Source of the DNA: a bacterium
Lineage (GTDB): Bacteria > ARS69
NCBI GenBank assembly: GCA_025774805.1
Contig: JALGZR010000114.1
Coordinates: 1-12,278 of the forward strand
DNA: 12,278 nucleotides
Direction: 5' to 3'
Shown piece by piece: positions 1,560-12,278 of the stretch. The translations under genes and the position numbers were made by a program. The notes under the pieces were generated by a model. The model saw only the letters and a list, made by a program, of their open reading frames with translations, ran no database searches and had not been told where the DNA came from. How positions within the stretch are numbered: the first letter of the stretch is position 1; every line of letters starts with the position of its first letter.

Positions 1560-4061
1560 CTACAGCATGTCCACCGGATCGACGTCGACGACGATCTCCA
1601 CTCCGGAGGCGCGCGAAGGCGTCTCGAGGGCACGAGCGGCGCAGGCCCGCACGTCTTCCCGTCGCTCCCCCTTGATCAGCAGCCGCAGTCGGTGCTTTCC
1701 GCGGAGCTTCGCCAGGGCGGCCGGCGCCGGTCCGAGCACTACGCTCCAGGCCGGGCGGTCGAGGACCGCCTCCGCGATCCGATCGCGAACGACGGCGGCC
1801 ACCTTCTCCACGTCCGGAAGATGGACTCCCCGTACGAGCACGGACGCCAGCTTCGCGAACGGGGGATAGCGAAGCGCTCGACGCTGCTCCATCTCCGTGG
1901 CCCGGAACGACGCCTCGTCGTGGCCGGAGGCCGCCCGCAGACAGACGTGCTCGGGGCAGCGGGTCTGAATGAGAACCTCTCCCCCGAGCTCGCTGCGTCC
2001 GGCGCGACCGGAAACCTGCGCGAGGATCTGGAACGTGCGCTCCGCCGCGCGGTAGTCGGGTAGGTGAAGGCCGGTGTCCGCGTTGACCACGCCGACGAGC
2101 GTGACGCGCGGGAAGTCGAGGCCTTTCGCGACCATTTGCGTGCCCAGAAGCACGTCGATCTTCCCCTCGAGGAACTTCTCGAGAATCTCCTCGTGCGAGC
2201 CGGTGCGCCGAACCGAGTCGGAATCGAGCCGCGCGAGGCGCAGATCGGGAAACGCTTCGCGGAGCTCCTCCTCGATTCGCTGGGTTCCCGCGCCGCGGTA
2301 GAAGAGCTGCCGGGCGCCGCAGGCGGGGCAGGCATCGGGAAGGCTCTCCGCGTGGTCGCAGTAGTGGCAGCGAATCGTCCCGTCCGCCTTGTGGTAGGTC
2401 AGCGACACGGCGCACTCGGTGCAGCGAACGGCCTCGCCGCAGCTCCCGCACTGCACGAAGGGACTGAAGCCTCTTCGGTTGAGGAAGAGAATCACCTGCT
2501 CGCGCCGGGTGATGCGCTTCTCGATCGCGTCGAGCAGCTCGGGAGTGAACGTGCCCTTCGTCCCGCGCAGATCGACCAGGCGGACCGCGGGCAGCGGCAG
2601 CGACGAGATTCGATCGGGCATGAGGAGGAGATCATGCACGCGGGTCTCGGAGGCGTGGCGGGTCTCCAGGTCGGGGGTGGCCGAACCGAGGATCACGACG
2701 CCCCGGGCCCGCTCGGCGCGCCGGATCGCGACGTCGCGCGCCCGGTAGCGCGGCGTGTCCTCCTGCTTGTAGGCGGCGTCGTGCTCCTCGTCGATGATGA
2801 GAAGACCGAGATCGGGGAGCGGCGCGAAGACGGCGGAGCGGGGCCCGAGCACGACGTCGTAGAGTCCGCGGCCGGCCGCGTGCCAGATGCGGCGGCGCTC
2901 CGGGTCGGTGAGACGAGAGTGCACGACTGCGGCGCGCGACCCGAATCGACCGCGCAGGCGGGACACGGTCTGTGGCGTCAGCGTGATCTCGGGAACGAGG
3001 AGAATCGCTCGCCGGCCGAGATCGCGCGCTTCCTCGAGCGCACGCAGGTAGACCTCGGTCTTGCCGCTGCCCGTCACCCCGTGCAGGAGAAACGTGCGGA
3101 ACTCGCCCGCACGCAACGCCGCGACGATCCCCGCCACCGCGTCGGCCTGCGCGGGTTGGAGCTCGGGACGCGGAACCCGGAGGGAGTCGTCCTCGTCACG
3201 CCCCTCCCAGATCTCGAGGGTTACTCGGGTCAGTCCCTTCTCCCGCAGACGCACCACCGCCCCCCGGGAGCCGGCCACCGCGGCGGCGAGATCGCGCAGG
3301 GGCATCGCCCCACCCGCCTCCCGAAGGAGTGCGAGACACCGCGCTTGCACCGGAGCCCTTCGCACGACGTCGGCGGGATCGGCGGGGGCGTCCTCGGCGA
3401 GGCGCACGACCCGGATCCGGGGAGGACCACCGGTCCCCTTTCCCAAGACCTTCTCGGCCGCGCGGACCTTTCCCCCCCGAACGAGGCGCTGCACCTCGCC
3501 CTGCAGATCCGGAACGCGCATTCCGAGGGCCTTCGCGAGCCGGGAGAGCGGCATCTCCCCGGCCTCCGCGATCCGCGCGAGGATCCGCTCCTCGAGCGAC
3601 GCGCCGGCGAGCCCGCCGAACAGATCCGTCGAGGTCGGCGCGCCGAGCGTGAGCACCTTTTCCCGCCGGGGAACGCCATGCCCGGGAAGCGCGGCCCGGA
3701 GCGCCTCTCCCCACGAACAGAGCGTTCTCTCCGCGAGCCAGCGCGTGAGGTCGAGGATCTCCTCCCCGACCAGCGGCTCGGGATCGATCAGAGAGTGGAC
3801 CTCCTTGAGCTCGCAGGGGGCGTCCTCCGGATCGAAGCCGATCACGAACCCGGCCAGCATCCGCGATCCGAAGGGAACCATGACCCGACAGCCGCGCTCG
3901 ACCCGACCCGCCAGACGGTCGGGGATGCGGTAGGCAAACGTCTTCCGCACCGGCACCGGCAGCGCGACATCGGCGATCGCGGCGGCTCGGGCGCGCGCTT
4001 CGGGTGTTCCCCCGGCCGAGGTGCCGATCTCAGGCTGGGAGACCGCGGCGCGATCCGGCAT
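1560..4061 (-). CDS. priA: Primosomal protein N' / replication restart 3'-to-5' DNA helicase PriA
   Basis: PriA is a superfamily 2 helicase that recognises stalled forks and D-loops and reloads the replicative helicase. The 833-residue product has the full architecture. The N-terminal 3'-end DNA-binding domain is at about 29-125 (VALPVPVRKTFAYRIP), followed by a winged-helix/linker region to about 295. Helicase lobe 1 has Walker A GVTGSGKT (328-335), DEEH (424-427) and GSATP (459-463). The zinc-binding insertion has eight cysteines (538, 541, 547, 550, 565, 568, 578, 581). Lobe 2 has GTQMVAKGLDFP (640-651) and QVSGRAGR (682-689). A C-terminal domain follows. The protein is about 100 residues longer than the 732-residue E. 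coli PriA, mostly in the N-terminal tail and linker. I chose ATG 4061 because AGAGG lies 4 nt upstream and the conserved domain starts about 28 residues later; the frame stays open far upstream only because of high GC. Nothing catalytic is missing. It lies 86 bp downstream of a same-strand membrane gene with no functional link. Confidence 0.97.
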   Translation of the reverse strand: MPDRAAVSQPEIGTSAGGTPEARARAAAIADVALPVPVRKTFAYRIPDRLAGRVERGCRVMVPFGSRMLAGFVIGFDPEDAPCELKEVHSLIDPEPLVGEEILDLTRWLAERTLCSWGEALRAALPGHGVPRREKVLTLGAPTSTDLFGGLAGASLEERILARIAEAGEMPLSRLAKALGMRVPDLQGEVQRLVRGGKVRAAEKVLGKGTGGPPRIRVVRLAEDAPADPADVVRRAPVQARCLALLREAGGAMPLRDLAAAVAGSRGAVVRLREKGLTRVTLEIWEGRDEDDSLRVPRPELQPAQADAVAGIVAALRAGEFRTFLLHGVTGSGKTEVYLRALEEARDLGRRAILLVPEITLTPQTVSRLRGRFGSRAAVVHSRLTDPERRRIWHAAGRGLYDVVLGPRSAVFAPLPDLGLLIIDEEHDAAYKQEDTPRYRARDVAIRRAERARGVVILGSATPDLETRHASETRVHDLLLMPDRISSLPLPAVRLVDLRGTKGTFTPELLDAIEKRITRREQVILFLNRRGFSPFVQCGSCGEAVRCTECAVSLTYHKADGTIRCHYCDHAESLPDACPACGARQLFYRGAGTQRIEEELREAFPDLRLARLDSDSVRRTGSHEEILEKFLEGKIDVLLGTQMVAKGLDFPRVTLVGVVNADTGLHLPDYRAAERTFQILAQVSGRAGRSELGGEVLIQTRCPEHVCLRAASGHDEASFRATEMEQRRALRYPPFAKLASVLVRGVHLPDVEKVAAVVRDRIAEAVLDRPAWSVVLGPAPAALAKLRGKHRLRLLIKGERREDVRACAARALETPSRASGVEIVVDVDPVDML

Positions 4062-4147: not shown

Positions 4148-5605
4148 CTAATCCCGCCTGGGCCGCCCCGGCGCGGCCCCCCGCCCCCTCGGAAACAGAA
4201 GCGCCCAGACGGCCGCCAGGGGAAGCAGCGCGAGGGGGCCGGGCAGTCGAATCGCCTCCCCGATCAGAAACGCGTCCCACCGATCGGTCACCGACGCGTC
4301 GATTCTCCCCGGTCGGAGCTCCGCGAACCCCTGCTCGGCGACGGAGAGCTCCCCCCGCACGAAGTGGGGAAGCCAGTGTTCGAACAGAGGATTGCCGATG
4401 GTCTCGGGCGCCTCGGGTTGCACCGACGTGCCCGCCAACATGAACAGCACGGACAGTGCGCCGATCGCGCAGGTGATGCGCGGCCATCGGGCCAGCGCCG
4501 CCGCGAGTCCGAGCCCGAGGAGAGGAATCGCGGGCACGAGGTGGCGCGGGCCGATCGACCACCCTCCGTGCCACGGGTGGTGCGCCGCGCTCAGTCCGAG
4601 GTAGTAGAGAAAGACGATCGCCGCGGCCACGGATTCCACGCGGCGTGCGGGCTCTCGAAACGTGCGGCCGAGTCCGTAAAACGCCATCAGCAGAATCGGA
4701 CACATGAAGAACAGCCCCCGGCGCGGTCCGAAGAGCAGGCGGAGGGCCGCCGCCGGATCGGGGGCCGTGAAGCCGTAGGTCTCGACGTTCTCGCGGAAGA
4801 GCGGGATCGTCTCGAATCGATACCCGGTCGCGAACGGACTGCCGAAGGCGACCTGATGGTAGGTCCCGAGGAGGAGGAGCCCGGGCGCCGCGCCCGCCAG
4901 CATGCCGAGCGCTCGACGCATCGCGCCCTGTCGATCCCGCAAAAGCGACCCGACGGCGAGAGTGAGGACCGCCGGCGCCGATGGGTACTCCGTCGCGATC
5001 GCGGCGGAGGCGGCGGCGCCCGCTCCCAGCGACCGAAGCCACCCCGACCGTCCTTCGCGGAGGTCGGTCGCAGCGGGATACGCCGCCCAGAAGAAGAGGA
5101 CCAGCCACCCCGCCGTCGGCGCGTGTCCCTGGAGCAGGGTCGCGTACGGAAAGAGGATCGTCCCGAGGAAGAGAAGGACGGTGGCGAGCCACGCGGTCGG
5201 GAGGTCGTACCCCCGATCGCCCAGGATTCGCAGGGTGACCACACCTCCCACCGCGGTGACGAGCCCCGACGCGAAGAGCGCCGCCAACCCGCCCGTCATC
5301 GCGAGCCAGACCGTCGTCGTCTTCGGCTGCCCGGTCACCCCGCGGATCGCATGACCGAGCGCCACCCCGGGCGCCGCCAAGAACGACGGCAACGGAGCCT
5401 TGTCCGAGTAGTAGTGCCCGTCGAGGTTCGCCTTGTCCCCGGTGTTCGCGTGATAGTCATCGATGCGAACGGTGCCCTGCTCGGCGAGCGCCCGGGCGAG
5501 ATCGAACCGGGAGGCCGAGCCCCACGTCGCCGCCTGGAAGAACCCGGCATACGTGAGCAAGAGCAACAGGAAGACCGAGAGGCTCTCGGCGCGACGGCCC
5601 GACAT
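4148..5605 (-). CDS. Polytopic membrane protein, GT-C glycosyltransferase-like
   Basis: The 485-residue product is strongly hydrophobic, with roughly 9-11 membrane segments (about 9-27, 70-90, 98-125, 136-153, 162-177, 193-222, 234-254, 296-311, 323-340, 354-392, 455-471). After the first segment comes a loop, RIDDYHANTGDKANLDGHYY-SDKAPLPS (47-74), whose acidic residues and Y-SDKAP motif recall the first extracytoplasmic loop of GT-C enzymes. The later motif WHGGWSIGPRHLVPAIPLL (345-363) is typical of a family usually annotated as hypothetical or glycosyltransferase-like membrane proteins. By analogy it would transfer a sugar from a polyprenyl-phosphate donor on the outer face of the membrane. 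Donor and acceptor are unknown, and catalysis is inferred, not shown. The start at 5605 is the first ATG giving a sensible N-terminus, though no strong ribosome-binding site precedes it. It diverges from the gene at 5720. Confidence 0.8.
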   Translation of the reverse strand: MSGRRAESLSVFLLLLLTYAGFFQAATWGSASRFDLARALAEQGTVRIDDYHANTGDKANLDGHYYSDKAPLPSFLAAPGVALGHAIRGVTGQPKTTTVWLAMTGGLAALFASGLVTAVGGVVTLRILGDRGYDLPTAWLATVLLFLGTILFPYATLLQGHAPTAGWLVLFFWAAYPAATDLREGRSGWLRSLGAGAAASAAIATEYPSAPAVLTLAVGSLLRDRQGAMRRALGMLAGAAPGLLLLGTYHQVAFGSPFATGYRFETIPLFRENVETYGFTAPDPAAALRLLFGPRRGLFFMCPILLMAFYGLGRTFREPARRVESVAAAIVFLYYLGLSAAHHPWHGGWSIGPRHLVPAIPLLGLGLAAALARWPRITCAIGALSVLFMLAGTSVQPEAPETIGNPLFEHWLPHFVRGELSVAEQGFAELRPGRIDASVTDRWDAFLIGEAIRLPGPLALLPLAAVWALLFPRGRGAAPGRPRRD

Positions 5606-8130: not shown

Positions 8131-8132
8131 CT
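8098..8132 (+). repeat. 35-nt intergenic repeat, copy 2 (downstream of the 781-residue gene)
   Basis: On the plus strand this block reads GCTGCCGC, nine variable bases, TGGTGAGATATGCAG, one variable base, then CT. It matches copy 1 (1495-1529, minus) at 28 of 35 positions without gaps. It starts 32 nt after the stop of the upstream plus-strand gene and points the same way, just as copy 1 does after priA. Its last two bases overlap the stop codon of the convergent gene. Confidence 0.7.
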
Positions 8133-9372
8133 AGCTCCTGCAGAAAACGCCGGCCGGATCGGCCGCGGTAGACAGGTCGACGATTCTCACCGGCAATCCC
8201 GCGGACTCCGCCCAGGCCCTCGCGCCCGCGGTGAAACCCGCCAGGGAGTACACCTTCAGGTGATCGAGGCCGGGGGTGAAGTGCCGATCGTACATTTCAC
8301 CGAGGTCCCTTTCCGTCGCCGGGGTACCGCGCCAGAGCATCTTGCCGGTCAGGCCTCCGTTGGCGAGCACGATGAACGGGCTTCGCGCGAACACGTGCTG
8401 CAGCGGCTCGTCGAGGCGCTGCGGACGGAGCAGGATGTTGCCGCGAGGGACGGGGCTGATCTCGATCCGGGTTCCCCACTTCCGTTTGTATCGGAAGAGG
8501 CCGTCGTTGAGCAGGGGGCGACTGCCCAGGAAGTCGACCTCGTGACAGCCCTGAAGGTACCCGTGAAGAATCGTGAAGTAGTACATTGCGCTGAACGCCC
8601 CCCGGAACAGATCGGCGGGCAGTCCGTCCGGCACTCCCACCCAGACGTAGGCGAGACGCCCCTCGAGCATGTGCAGCAGGACGGCCGCCACCACTTCGCC
8701 CTCGCGGAGGACATGCATCAGCGCGCCCTTGTGGTACTGACGCCGGACCTTCGCCTCCGGCTCGATGATGGCCTCGTCGCCGAATCGCATCCGGAGATAG
8801 GGAACGTACATCCGGTGGTAGAAATCGTCGAAGTCTTTCTCCCGCCGGGTGATCACGTAGGTCAGACCGTACTTGCGCACCCTCCGGAGATCCGTCTTCT
8901 TCGTGTTCTTCCGGAACGAGCCCAGCACCTCCGACCACGTCCCAGGCATCTCGTACTTCTGCCGGATCCACTGCGGGATTTGAAGAAACGAGGCCCGTCG
9001 GAAGGGGCGGTCGTAGAGAAGCTCGACGTCGGCGAACAGCAGAGAGGCGCGATCCGACCAGCGCGCGATCCACCGGGGGCCCCGGAGCGAGTGGACGCCC
9101 TCGTGCCGCTCGACCGTCTCGAACTCCTCGTAGATCCGTTTCAAGACGAAGGCGTGCGACCCGTAGTGGCCGAAGTACGCGGTCGTGAGTGGGAGGCCGG
9201 TTTCCTTCTCCCGGCCTCGGATCAGGAGGGCATCGGCTCGCGCGAGGCGCAGCGACCCGGAGAGCTCCCAGAGGTATTCCAGAGTCGCCCCTGCGCGCTT
9301 GCGCAGGCGTCGTATCGGCCCCGCGGTGTGATCGACGATCGGCCGCGTCTCAGGAATGGGGAGAGATTGCAT
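8131..9372 (-). CDS. GNAT/FemAB-like acyl- or aminoacyltransferase (second paralogue in operon)
   Basis: The 413-residue product starts at ATG 9372, which overlaps the end of the radical SAM gene by 23 bp. GAGAGGG lies 9 nt upstream; the frame continues further upstream only as a shadow. It has no signal peptide or membrane segment. The centre, SFRKNTKKTDLRRVRK (152-167), then MYVPYLRMRFG (188-198), GEVVAAVLLHMLEGRLAYVWVG (225-246) and EVDFLGSRPLLNDGLFRYKRKWG (278-300), is the pattern of the Acetyltransf_6/FemAB-related GNAT fold. FemAB relatives transfer amino acids from aminoacyl-tRNA to peptidoglycan precursors; others transfer acyl groups from CoA. The donor cannot be told from sequence. 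Residues about 310-413 form an extra C-terminal domain, containing SPFIVLANGGL (331-341) and GLDHLKVYSLAGF (368-380). This domain also matches the partner gene at 11544. It is the last gene of the operon. Confidence 0.8.
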   Translation of the reverse strand: MQSLPIPETRPIVDHTAGPIRRLRKRAGATLEYLWELSGSLRLARADALLIRGREKETGLPLTTAYFGHYGSHAFVLKRIYEEFETVERHEGVHSLRGPRWIARWSDRASLLFADVELLYDRPFRRASFLQIPQWIRQKYEMPGTWSEVLGSFRKNTKKTDLRRVRKYGLTYVITRREKDFDDFYHRMYVPYLRMRFGDEAIIEPEAKVRRQYHKGALMHVLREGEVVAAVLLHMLEGRLAYVWVGVPDGLPADLFRGAFSAMYYFTILHGYLQGCHEVDFLGSRPLLNDGLFRYKRKWGTRIEISPVPRGNILLRPQRLDEPLQHVFARSPFIVLANGGLTGKMLWRGTPATERDLGEMYDRHFTPGLDHLKVYSLAGFTAGARAWAESAGLPVRIVDLSTAADPAGVFCRS

Positions 9373-10474
9373 TCGCGAACACCCTCTCGTGGCCGTAGTT
9401 CTTCGGGTCCCATATGCCGCGCAGGCAGGGCGCCCCCGTCGCCATCCGTCCCCAGCAGCCGCCCCCACACGCCTGGCGATGTATGCATGTGGCGCATTCG
9501 CCCATCAGCTCCACCTTCCGGTATTTCTCGAATCCGCGGAGCCAAATCTCACGGAAGGACCGATCCCGAACGTTCCCCTCGGAATAGGCGGTGTCGTAGA
9601 CAATCTGGCAGGGCAGAACGTGCCCGTTCGGCATGATCACGCAAAAGCTCAGTCCGGAGGGACAGATGAACGGTGTGTTGCGCGTCGTGGTGTCTAAGCA
9701 GCCGAGATAGCCGAGCTCCTCGGAAAGCTCGATGTCGAACTCCCGCCTCTTTCCCTCGACGAATCGGAACAGTCGCTCGATTTGGTCGTGAGAGAGGGCC
9801 CACTGATTGTCGGAGGCCCGACCGACCGGAGTCGCCAGCGCCAGACGCCACTGATTGATGCCGGCATCCCGGAGAGCGGCCAGGAGCTCCGGAAGCTCTT
9901 CGAGGATCCCCGGATGCACCATCGTGTTCACGACGCGCCGGGGGACCTCGATCTTTCGGTAGAAGCGGATGGCGTCCAGCGTCGTGCCGAAGGCTCCCGC
10001 GACACCCCGATTTCGATCGTGGGTCTCCGCCAGTCCGTCGACGCTCGTCCAGATGCTCGCCAACCGAGCTGCCTCGAGATCCTTCGCGTATCGTCTCCAC
10101 AACAGGCTGTTCGTGATGATCGAAACGGTCATTCCCCGCCGTCTCGCCTTGCCGAGCACCGGAAACAGGTCCTTTCGGAGGAGCGGCTCCCCGCCGGTGA
10201 CGAAGAACCGCTTGACCCGGAGCGCGGCCAGGTCGTCGAGAACGCGGACGATCTCTTCGGTCGTCAGCTCGTCGGGCCGCTTGTCGTCCGCGCTCGCCTC
10301 GCAGTAGACGCAACTCGAGTTGCAGCGGTAGGTGGCCATCCAGTGGACGACGGAGGGTCCCGGGCGGAGCCCGGTCCGGCGGAGGAAGTTCAGGTAAGAG
10401 CGCTTCCAAGTGAAGTAGTTGTTCCTGTAAAGGGCCCCGAGGAGCGGGATCTTCTGAACGTGACAATTCCACAT
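9350..10474 (-). CDS. Radical SAM/SPASM domain enzyme
   Basis: The 374-residue enzyme has the [4Fe-4S] radical SAM motif C51-NSS-C55-VY-C58 and GGEPLL (94-99) for SAM binding. It also has a complete seven-cysteine SPASM motif: C271-x12-G284-x4-C289, C327-x2-C330-x5-C336-x3-C340, and C350. SPASM proteins hold one or two auxiliary clusters. In characterised cases (PqqE, anaerobic sulfatase maturases, sactipeptide and mycofactocin enzymes) most modify a peptide or protein; a few act on small molecules. The first 40 residues form a basic/aromatic segment of unknown role, and no RiPP recognition (PqqD-like) domain is obvious. The ATG at 10474 overlaps the M23 stop as TGATG and is preceded by a near-ideal AGGAGGT 9 nt upstream, so translation is coupled and probably strong. 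Substrate unknown; the neighbours suggest a peptide or envelope component. Confidence 0.93.
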   Translation of the reverse strand: MWNCHVQKIPLLGALYRNNYFTWKRSYLNFLRRTGLRPGPSVVHWMATYRCNSSCVYCEASADDKRPDELTTEEIVRVLDDLAALRVKRFFVTGGEPLLRKDLFPVLGKARRRGMTVSIITNSLLWRRYAKDLEAARLASIWTSVDGLAETHDRNRGVAGAFGTTLDAIRFYRKIEVPRRVVNTMVHPGILEELPELLAALRDAGINQWRLALATPVGRASDNQWALSHDQIERLFRFVEGKRREFDIELSEELGYLGCLDTTTRNTPFICPSGLSFCVIMPNGHVLPCQIVYDTAYSEGNVRDRSFREIWLRGFEKYRKVELMGECATCIHRQACGGGCWGRMATGAPCLRGIWDPKNYGHERVFANAISPHS

Positions 10475-11547
10475 CAGATCGCGACCTCCTGGACATCGAT
10501 TCCCGGCTTCGAGAGCTCGTACCAGTCGAGGAGAAAGTTGTACGGATTGACCGGGATCGTCGCGAAAACGCTGTCGTCCCTCTCGAGGCCGAGACAGGAG
10601 GGATTCAACCGCATCTCGAAGTGGAGATGGTCGTCGATGGCGGCGTCGAAACCGGTGTGGCCGGTGAAGCCGATGACCTGGCCCCTTCGGACCCTGTCGC
10701 CGTCGGCCACGAGAATCTCGGACAGGTGCAGGAAGCGGTAGAGGACGCGCCCCCCGTCCGGACCGACCTCGGCCTTCCCCCAGAGGTTCACCACCTTGCT
10801 GCGCGTCCGGTCGTCGGGATCGGCGTCGGCGTGGTAGATGCGGTGCACCGTTCCATCGACGGGACTCAGTACCGGTTCCGGGACTCCGTCCCGGGTCGCG
10901 AAGAGGTCGATCCCCCCGTGGATGCCGTAGCGGGTCGTGTGCAGCCAGTTCCCGAACCGGTCCCGGGTCCACTCGGGCTGGTCGAGGACGAAGCGCCCGG
11001 AGGCCTCCGACGGGCCGCCTCCGGCCGTCGGGCTCCAGACGGCGAGGCGCACGTCTCCTCGCAACCGGAAGCGGCGGAACGTGTTGAACGGCGACGTACC
11101 TCGGTGGCTGCGGGAGAAGAGCAGGCGGGTGATCTCGGCGGAGATGGCCACACCGTCGATGGAGGTGCGCCCGACACCTCCCTCTCGGGGCCCCTCCATG
11201 CCGCAGCGGACGTCATGGCGCTCACCCCGATGCTCCAGGATCACTCGGGTGCGCGGGCAGGCCCAACGGCGGCTCTCGACGGCGACCCCGACCACGCAAA
11301 GAGGAAGCTCCTCGCGGTCGGATCGGAGGATCTTCAGGGTGTCGCCGACGCACAGATCCACATAGCGCGGGAGCGGGGAAGAGTGATCCGTCGCGCGCAG
11401 ATCGACGGGCACGCTCGATGGCCTGTGCCTGTCGCCCGGCGACCCACCCCATCGACCGGGGCCGAGGTAGTAGTGCCGGGGGACCACGATGGCGAAAAGG
11501 GCCCCACCCAGAGCCAACGCGCCGAGGATCAGCAGGGCGATTCTCAC
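10474..11547 (-). CDS. Membrane-anchored M23 family metallopeptidase (LytM/lysostaphin type)
   Basis: The 357-residue product starts at GTG 11547. The start overlaps the stop of the preceding gene as GTGA, with GGGAGGAG 5 nt upstream; the frame open further upstream is a shadow of that gene. Residues 4-22 form a signal anchor or uncleaved signal peptide, so the rest should lie outside the cytoplasm. Residues about 60-170 form a domain I do not recognise, with four cysteines (66, 84, 97, 115) that could make two disulfides. The M23 domain spans about 205-312 and is intact: H210-xxx-D214 and H307-L-H309 supply the zinc ligands and a catalytic His, and H274 lies in the usual YRFLHLS strand. M23 enzymes cut peptidoglycan cross-links or Gly-rich peptides; many are scaffolds, but here all ligands are present. 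In this operon it may cleave a modified peptide or open peptidoglycan for export; both are inference. Confidence 0.92.
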   Translation of the reverse strand: MRIALLILGALALGGALFAIVVPRHYYLGPGRWGGSPGDRHRPSSVPVDLRATDHSSPLPRYVDLCVGDTLKILRSDREELPLCVVGVAVESRRWACPRTRVILEHRGERHDVRCGMEGPREGGVGRTSIDGVAISAEITRLLFSRSHRGTSPFNTFRRFRLRGDVRLAVWSPTAGGGPSEASGRFVLDQPEWTRDRFGNWLHTTRYGIHGGIDLFATRDGVPEPVLSPVDGTVHRIYHADADPDDRTRSKVVNLWGKAEVGPDGGRVLYRFLHLSEILVADGDRVRRGQVIGFTGHTGFDAAIDDHLHFEMRLNPSCLGLERDDSVFATIPVNPYNFLLDWYELSKPGIDVQEVAI

Positions 11548-12278
11548 GTCTTCTCCTCCCCGACGTCCACGGAGACGTCGCGCGCCGCCGGGGGTCGTTC
11601 CCTCCGATAGTGCTCCATAGCCGTCGCGAGGTCCCGGCACACGAGATTGCGGGGCCCCACCTCCGCCCGGAGCCGATCGGGAACTCCGTCGCGCACTCCC
11701 CCGGGACAGACGCCGATGAAGCTCGTGAGCCCGTCGACCCAGGAGACACGGCGCAGCTTGCGGACCTCGTCGAGATCGAGACGATGGTCCGCGTGGCGGA
11801 CGCAGAGGACGCCGAGCCCCCCGGCACTCTCGTAGACAAAGCTCGTCGACTCCAGTGCCTCGGCGAGCCCGACATCGGGCCGGCGCCAGGTGAGGGCCAT
11901 GCTCATTACGCCGTCCGCATCCGGGGTGATTTCCATCTGCCACTTGCGCTTGTTGTAGAAGACCCCGTCTCCCGGGAAGGGCCGCGTGTGACCGACGTCC
12001 AGCGTTCGGACCCCGTGCTCGGCCGCCCACTCGTGCAGGTGGTAGTCGAGAGCGGCGGAGACGGGTTCGCGCAGGATGTCCCGGGATCCGTCCAGGACCC
12101 CGATCGTGGTGAGCGAGGCTCGGCTTCCGTCGACGCGCACGAGCCCCCCGGCCACGGTCTTGCCAGCCCGGCCGACGAGCATGAGGAATCCGGAGTGGAA
12201 ATCCCTCAGCAGCCGGCCCCGTGACTTCAGAATGGTGCCGCCCCCGAAGCGCGCGGCCGCGTGAGGTCGATACATGCG
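11544..12278 (-). CDS. GNAT/FemAB-like transferase, N-terminus beyond window (first paralogue)
   Basis: The frame is open to the right edge; 244 codons are visible. The Met at 12275 is not the true start: RMYRPHAAARFG there aligns with HRMYVPYLRMRFG, residues 187-198 of the protein encoded at 8131-9372, so about 190 residues are probably missing. Other matches are GKTVAGGLVRVDG with GEVVAAVLLHMLEG, TLDVGHTRPFPGDGVFYNKRKW with EVDFLGSRPLLNDGLFRYKRKW, and in the C-terminal domain TSFVYESAGGL with SPFIVLANGGL. Identity is low, but order and spacing hold along the whole visible length. The fold is Acetyltransf_6/FemAB-like, and the donor and acceptor are unknown. Its 3' end carries the ribosome-binding site of the M23 gene and overlaps it by 4 bp, so it belongs to the same transcript. 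It is the most upstream gene of the operon visible here. Confidence 0.78.
   Translation of the reverse strand, partial: RMYRPHAAARFGGGTILKSRGRLLRDFHSGFLMLVGRAGKTVAGGLVRVDGSRASLTTIGVLDGSRDILREPVSAALDYHLHEWAAEHGVRTLDVGHTRPFPGDGVFYNKRKWQMEITPDADGVMSMALTWRRPDVGLAEALESTSFVYESAGGLGVLCVRHADHRLDLDEVRKLRRVSWVDGLTSFIGVCPGGVRDGVPDRLRAEVGPRNLVCRDLATAMEHYRRERPPAARDVSVDVGEEKT

Follow-up and report, generated by a model that had tools for sequence, protein, structure and literature searches.

FemABX transferases use aminoacyl-tRNA as donor and have a conserved lysine (K305 in FemXWv), and BtrN, a SPASM-related enzyme, modifies a sugar in a sugar-derived antibiotic pathway. SkfB, PqqE, and the mycofactocin maturase are SPASM peptide maturases. 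GNAT-fold enzymes of the kind that one transferase in the present locus resembles (GNAT2, below) are aminoacyl-tRNA-dependent transferases (reviewed in PMC12945691). In the biosynthesis of pearlins (3-thiaglutamate, 3-thiahomoleucine), an amino acid is loaded from tRNA, modified in place, in the tmo case by a radical SAM enzyme, and freed by a protease (PMC9303977). As a works-like analogy, the locus described here would resemble this scheme in its proposed combination of loading from tRNA, modification in place, and release by a protease; however, pearlins are built on a ribosomal peptide carrier by ligases that are LanB-like, not GNATs (PMC12945691), while no carrier peptide was found in the operon studied here and its transferase is a GNAT. 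Within the part of the open-access literature that was covered, we found no published association of a SPASM enzyme with surface polysaccharide or of a FemX-type transferase with a polysaccharide system, nor any described system uniting a SPASM enzyme, GNATs, and an M23 peptidase, as the preliminary description of this DNA had also stated.

The window, the whole 12,278-nucleotide stretch that was analysed, contains the four overlapping genes of that description, all on the - strand: the 3' part of GNAT1, a FemX-like transferase (11544..12278); an M23 (LytM-type) metallopeptidase of 357 aa (10474..11547); a SPASM radical SAM protein of 374 aa (9350..10474); and GNAT2, a FemX-like aminoacyl transferase of 413 aa (P0001; 8131..9372). 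The reported overlaps are likewise present: the GTG start of the M23 gene overlaps the GNAT1 stop in a GTGA (the junction reads CGTGAG, 11547-11544), the M23 and SPASM genes share a TGATG (CTGATGT, 10476-10472), and the SPASM and GNAT2 genes overlap by 23 bp at 9350-9372. All four genes look coding, since their third-position GC (0.81-0.86) matches that of other genes on the contig. A membrane glycosyltransferase-like gene on the same strand (4148..5605; sub-threshold match, E 1.3e-10, to the LA_3751/LA_3752 family of putative glycosyltransferases) probably lies outside the operon, as a + strand gene intervenes.

The first GNAT is present as described, but the gene as listed comprises only the 3' 244 of about 410 codons, as the window ends inside it. 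A second contig from this genome, C169, carries the missing 5' part (locus L003), with an ATG start at C169:598 on the - strand. The C169 protein ('...ELFYERMYRPHAA') has 'RMYRPHAA' in common with the window end, and the DNA of C169 and of the window contig (C81) is identical at 23 of 24 overlapping bases. The composite GNAT1 has 410 aa and aligns with GNAT2 across the joint (32% identity over 240 aa, E 7e-28). The end of C169 is a deletion-like junction, and the joint rests on this short overlap together with the continuity of the protein.

Upstream of GNAT1, C169 encodes a pyruvyl transferase (PS_pyruv_trans PF04230, E 9e-29; CsaB-like, E 2e-41), a CapK/PaaK-type AMP ligase (DVU_1553/PaaK-like, with an apparent frame-shift in the last quarter of the gene), and a Wzx-like flippase (Polysacc_synt_3, E 6.8e-5; its 22.7 bits fall narrowly short of the 23-bit cut-off), in that order, on the same strand and each touching or overlapping the next. 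GNAT1, M23, SPASM, and GNAT2 follow. A flippase and sugar-modifying enzymes share one operon, as in a Wzx-type surface-polysaccharide locus, and, like Wzx-dependent loci, this operon combines PF04230, Polysacc_synt_3, and an AMP ligase; unlike them, it adds a SPASM enzyme, two FemX-like GNATs, and an M23 peptidase, and its seven genes include no glycosyltransferase, Wzy polymerase, or export gene. The window genes form the tail of this seven-gene operon, whose surface-glycan setting is well supported. Its upstream part had been named as the place where a known pathway would count against the preliminary reading, and what appears there is surface-glycan synthesis.

The SPASM protein contains a CxxxCxxC motif (C51/C55/C58) and a further cysteine set, C271-x12-G284-x4-C289, C327-x2-C330-x5-C336-x3-C340, and C350. 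These three radical-SAM and seven SPASM cysteines, ten in all, are invariant in six homologues, and the protein matches Radical_SAM (PF04055, E 3.5e-24) and SPASM (PF13186, E 1.5e-8). It shares this cysteine pattern with SkfB, PqqE, and the mycofactocin maturase (TIGR04133), which are its best PDB and NCBIfam sequence matches; its profile also matches BtrN in the PDB search. However, the best 25 of its 74 NCBIfam equivalog matches are all far below cut-off (top match TIGR04133, 160.3 versus 425 bits), so that, among these, the enzyme appears to fall outside every named family. It further differs from the SPASM peptide maturases in having no PqqD/RRE partner or precursor and in having a FemX-like transferase as its operon partner. 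No relatives were found among viral contigs and plasmids.

A sister SPASM clade, 36-40% identical, adjoins PqqD, lasso-B2, and lasso-type leader-like peptides, so the earlier suggestion of peptide modification survives in part, through the RiPP-like loci of these relatives of the enzyme, but finds no support in the window operon. A six-frame scan for one motif class, the lasso-type leader, gave nothing convincing in the window, in C169, or in the SPASM-GNAT loci; no convincing precursor-like ORF came to light in the window, in the small-ORF lists for the gaps of C169, or in the SPASM-GNAT loci, although an atypical precursor could escape these checks; and PqqD (PF05402) is absent from the genome itself, which is 96% complete. 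The gene junctions in the window, all overlaps, leave no space for a precursor gene. With polysaccharide genes upstream, the operon is not a recognisable RiPP cluster, and the RiPP-like pathway proposed earlier is not borne out here.

Assignment of the two GNATs depends on fold comparison and on their mutual identity, because Pfam cut-offs are not passed: GNAT2 matches PF13480 below cut-off (E 0.009) and has no match to FemAB (PF02388), GNAT1 (P0004) has no Pfam match, and a GNAT profile matched no PDB sequence. The GNAT2 model shows a confident second domain that is closest to FemX and a low-confidence, putative N-terminal GNAT domain (mean pLDDT 55.5). Foldseek ranked Sba18 and FemX of Weissella viridescens highest (E about 3e-8), and VIA-align gave Z 15.7 for FemX and 15.5 for Sba18 over about 143 residues, whereas FemA, MprF, and acyl-CoA GNATs reached no more than 12.8; Sbb17, an aminoacyl-tRNA-dependent transferase like these two, is also among the best folds. 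K296 is invariant in 6/6 aligned relatives, and a C-terminal extension is absent from those in other genomes. The modelled fold suggests an aminoacyl-tRNA-dependent amino-acid transferase for which tRNA is the predicted and acyl-CoA a possible donor. GNAT2 differs from FemX, Sba18, and Sbb17 in lacking PF02388, in identity (about 15-19%), in its SPASM partner, and in its location in a surface-glycan operon.

The M23 protein (P0003; Peptidase_M23 PF01551, E 3.3e-13) is related to the M23 endopeptidases ShyA and lysostaphin and has an N-terminal membrane helix (residues 2-24); a single-sequence structure model (pLDDT 35) is uninformative past this helix. HxxxD (H210/D214), H274, and HxH (H307/H309) are all present, and with the cysteines above they confirm that both enzyme cores are intact. 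No close relatives were found at E 1e-15 in 241 genomes, and a regular-expression scan, which a divergent protein could escape, detected no M23-type HxxxD...HxH protein in other SPASM neighbourhoods. We therefore reject M23 as a conserved partner of the SPASM-GNAT pair, which it accompanies only in the window locus.

The tie between SPASM and a GNAT is found in other genomes. A FemX-like gene directly follows the SPASM gene in 4/5 of the closest loci (three from KSB1 and one from a delta-proteobacterial MAG), the exception being a Delongbacteria locus. In L026, L029, and L030, a 4-bp overlap joins the SPASM stop to the GNAT ATG; in L027, a gap of 2 bp separates the genes. Because GNAT relatives (E <= 1e-20) occur in only 6/290 genomes, this adjacency is not due to chance. 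At least two further bacterial phyla carry the core pair. All three KSB1 loci encode a methyltransferase, a MurF-like ligase, SPASM, and GNAT, in that order; a CapK-like gene recurs beside the pair, following it in the delta locus (33% identity in L026). Glycan genes around these loci include Wzx, GT2, PMT_2, and a deacetylase-GT2 fusion.

The probable role of the seven-gene operon is to make a sugar polymer for the cell surface and to add amino acids to it that are then chemically altered. We consider the best overall explanation, at a probability of roughly one half, to be a surface-glycan operon in which amino acids derived from tRNA are grafted, altered by SPASM, and trimmed by M23, and we infer its chemistry from the enzyme families and their partners as follows. 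A lipid-linked sugar intermediate would be made and pyruvylated in the cytoplasm. Each FemX-like GNAT would then use aminoacyl-tRNA to load an amino acid onto an amino group of this intermediate, forming a short amide-linked side chain; the fold behind this predicted reaction is that of GNAT2. The CapK-like ligase could activate a carboxylate for capping or joining the side chain, a role that, in the KSB1 loci, the exchange of partners would assign to an enzyme of Mur-ligase type. The SPASM enzyme, given its pairing with the transferase, may oxidatively alter the attached amino acid by radical chemistry. The product would be flipped by Wzx, and outside the cytoplasm the membrane-anchored M23 peptidase, a lineage-specific addition, may trim the side chain or open the wall for the polymer.

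Alternatively, the CapK-like ligase could supply acyl-CoA with which both GNATs acylate glycan sugars, while SPASM modifies a sugar. The glycan gene context, the CoA ligases among CapK relatives, the use of acyl-CoA by ordinary GNATs, and the match to BtrN all accord with this scheme, but acyl-CoA GNATs score about 3 Z units lower than the FemX and Sba18 folds, and the KSB1 ligase partner is of the Mur (amino-acid ligase) type rather than a CoA ligase, so we regard acyl decoration as rather unlikely. Peptidoglycan remodelling, in which the GNATs would extend lipid II with bridge amino acids, SPASM modify the stem or bridge, and M23 cut, with the glycan genes attaching a wall polymer, would fit the action of FemX and M23 on peptidoglycan elsewhere and the MurF-like ligases beside the pair in KSB1. 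It appears improbable, as M23 was not seen in the other SPASM-GNAT loci, GNAT relatives accompany PMT_2/GT2 genes, and the SPASM family has a sparse, patchy distribution (6/386 genomes at E 1e-75), unlike a core wall function. A pearlin- or RiPP-like route, with the GNATs extending a ribosomal precursor encoded elsewhere, SPASM modifying it, and M23 cutting it at export, could draw on the SPASM homologies, the sister clade, and the pearlin precedent, but is very doubtful given the missing PqqD, leader motif, and precursor, the overlapping junctions, and the LanB-like nature of pearlin ligases.

Returning to the grafting of amino acids onto a surface glycan, we tentatively suggest a cross-phylum module in which SPASM might remodel amino acids that a FemX-like transferase grafts from tRNA onto a surface-glycan carrier, the glycan taking the place of the RiPP or pearlin carrier peptide. 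Should the pair have the proposed role, bacterial surface glycans would have their amino-acid side chains altered by radical SAM/SPASM chemistry, the surface-polymer repertoire would gain non-standard residues, and a SPASM stop overlapping a FemX-like ATG would be a genomic signature for finding more pairs. The locus also cautions that a SPASM enzyme encoded next to a peptidase or transferase need not be a RiPP maturase. A single recent transfer as the source of the adjacency is rejected: identity to the window SPASM is only 36-40%, and the loci belong to different phyla, so that any transfer of the pair must be old.

Four minus-strand ORFs close the window: GNAT2 (8131–9372), encoding a FemX-like GNAT; a SPASM radical SAM protein (9350–10474); an M23 peptidase (10474–11547); and the 3' part of a first GNAT gene, GNAT1, which extends from 11544 off the window end. 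All lie where the preliminary description placed them, and the overlaps it claimed can be read in the sequence as the junctions GTGA and TGATG and a 23-bp overlap. Third-position GC is 0.81–0.86 in all four, similar to the contig's other genes, and thus the overlaps join real genes. Both enzyme cores are intact, as had been claimed: the SPASM protein contains three radical-SAM and all seven SPASM cysteines, all ten invariant in six homologues, while the M23 protein contains HxxxD, a further His, and HxH, as well as an N-terminal membrane helix. Both GNATs fell below the Pfam cut-off; their identity as GNATs rests on fold and mutual similarity. Each carries a C-terminal extension of ~70–100 residues (8131–8400 and 11544–11800, minus strand) missing from aligned relatives in other phyla. 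An unrelated minus-strand frame at 1560–4000 was recognised by eye as a PriA-like primosomal helicase.

The window is one entire contig of a 5.1 Mb, 96% complete assembly. Searched against its own genome, GNAT2 matched GNAT1 and a stretch of another contig, C169, that aligns with its N-terminal half. The C169 protein ('...FELFYERMYRPHAA') and the start of the window protein ('RMYRPHAA') share 23 of 24 bases at the DNA level. Window positions 11907–11990 are identical to C169:1–84, which there adjoin sequence lying 5' of the window end, so the C169 end skips ~260 bases of GNAT1 between two copies of CACGCGGCC, either an assembly artefact (collapse) or a strain deletion. When the composite GNAT1 (410 aa) is compared with GNAT2, the alignment runs through the joint without interruption, at 32% identity over 240 aa (E 7e-28). 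Based on the shared sequence and this alignment, we take C169 as the upstream neighbour of the window, a strong inference short of read-level proof.

The preliminary description had proposed examining the upstream sequence, and C169 supplies three further genes on the same strand as GNAT1: a polysaccharide pyruvyl transferase (C169:4566–3298; PF04230, E 9e-29; CsaB-like, E 2e-41); a CapK-like AMP ligase (C169:3301–1994, minus strand), nearest to DVU_1553/PaaK-like proteins and overlapping the preceding ORF by 4 bp; and a Wzx-like protein (C169:2156–600; PF13440, E 7e-5, 22.7 bits, just short of the cut-off of 23), with GNAT1 starting immediately 3' of its stop, at C169:598. The CapK-like frame diverges from its relative in L026, a delta-proteobacterial MAG locus, near C169:2300, so this gene may be broken or mis-assembled. 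With the four genes of the window, they make up a series of seven, each abutting or overlapping the next. Further upstream, C169 encodes a CPBP-like membrane protein, along with genes of no evident relation to the operon.

A collection scan recovered SPASM relatives (36–39% identity) in five loci: L026, two from KSB1 (L027, L029), one from Delongbacteria (L028), and one from UBA2214 (L030, genome G435), which the search placed in the phylum of the KSB1 genome G049. A FemX-like GNAT directly follows SPASM in four of the five; in three of these its ATG and the stop codon of SPASM overlap by 4 bp, and in one a 2 bp gap separates them. The claimed SPASM–GNAT adjacency thus recurs. In Delongbacteria, SPASM is followed by another radical SAM gene and glycosyltransferases, and the upstream side ends at the contig end. 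All three KSB1-phylum loci contain a methyltransferase and a MurF-like ligase upstream of the pair; in L026 the gene after the pair encodes a CapK-like ligase that shares 33% identity with its C169 counterpart. Wzx, GT2, PMT_2, and deacetylase genes occur in the vicinity of these loci, and PMT_2-type genes adjoin GNAT relatives in at least two further genomes. A motif-pattern scan showed no M23 protein in the other loci; the M23 part is lineage-specific.

Each component family is already known. The preliminary description knew of no system with its four-gene set, and the open-access literature searched, of partial coverage, yielded no match for a SPASM and FemX-like pairing in surface-glycan operons, which we find in three phyla, counting the window's own. 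The combination is unexpected and testable.

An AlphaFold2 model of GNAT2 with five relatives is confident in the second domain and poor in the first (mean pLDDT 55.5). The ten leading Foldseek hits comprise FemX, Sba18/Sbb17, and a single lysyl-phosphatidylglycerol synthase; in VIA-align, FemX scores 15.7 and Sba18 15.5, ahead of FemA (12.8), MprF (12.7), and acyl-CoA GNATs (≤12.1). Because FemX and antibiotic-pathway relatives with this fold are described as aminoacyl-tRNA-dependent (PMC12945691), the model favours an amino acid as the transferred group. In the proposed mechanism, the two GNATs would load tRNA-supplied amino acids onto a lipid-linked glycan intermediate, the SPASM enzyme would act on the attached amino acid, and M23 may act after export. 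The pearlin pathway (PMC9303977), in which residues are loaded from tRNA, modified in place, and released by a protease, is a fair "works like" analogy; we do not place the operon in that class, as the analysis turned up no carrier peptide and the transferase belongs to another family. The main rival is acylation by an acyl-CoA made by CapK, with SPASM acting on a sugar; the higher fold scores of FemX and Sba18 relative to acyl-CoA GNATs count against it. Peptidoglycan remodelling, suggested by the M23 and MurF-like genes, is less likely, the former being lineage-specific.

A RiPP pathway, as first suggested, is also less likely here. A sister clade of SPASM proteins (36–40% identical), present in six genomes that share a genus within the G228 phylum, forms its own supported branch; the window SPASM is provisionally placed beside both this clade and the group above. 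The three sister loci examined (L043, L064, L065; G228:C7, G489:C4, G485:C26) encode PqqD, lasso-B2, an HprK-related kinase, and a nucleotidyltransferase, with a cyanophycin-synthetase-like Mur ligase in two of them, and several very small ORFs whose motif resembles a lasso leader, for example PYTKPTLTKHKPLRDIT. We know of no description of this RiPP-like arrangement. As the SPASM family is common to RiPP-like and glycan settings, function must be decided by setting, not family. The tiny ORFs read PYxKPTLTKHKPLRDIT or PYxRPxLRRxGWLRDVTA, with very short tails after the Thr. A further SPASM radical SAM protein (L038; G268:C84, 532–2550) carries a fused N-terminal SPFH/Band 7 (stomatin) domain.
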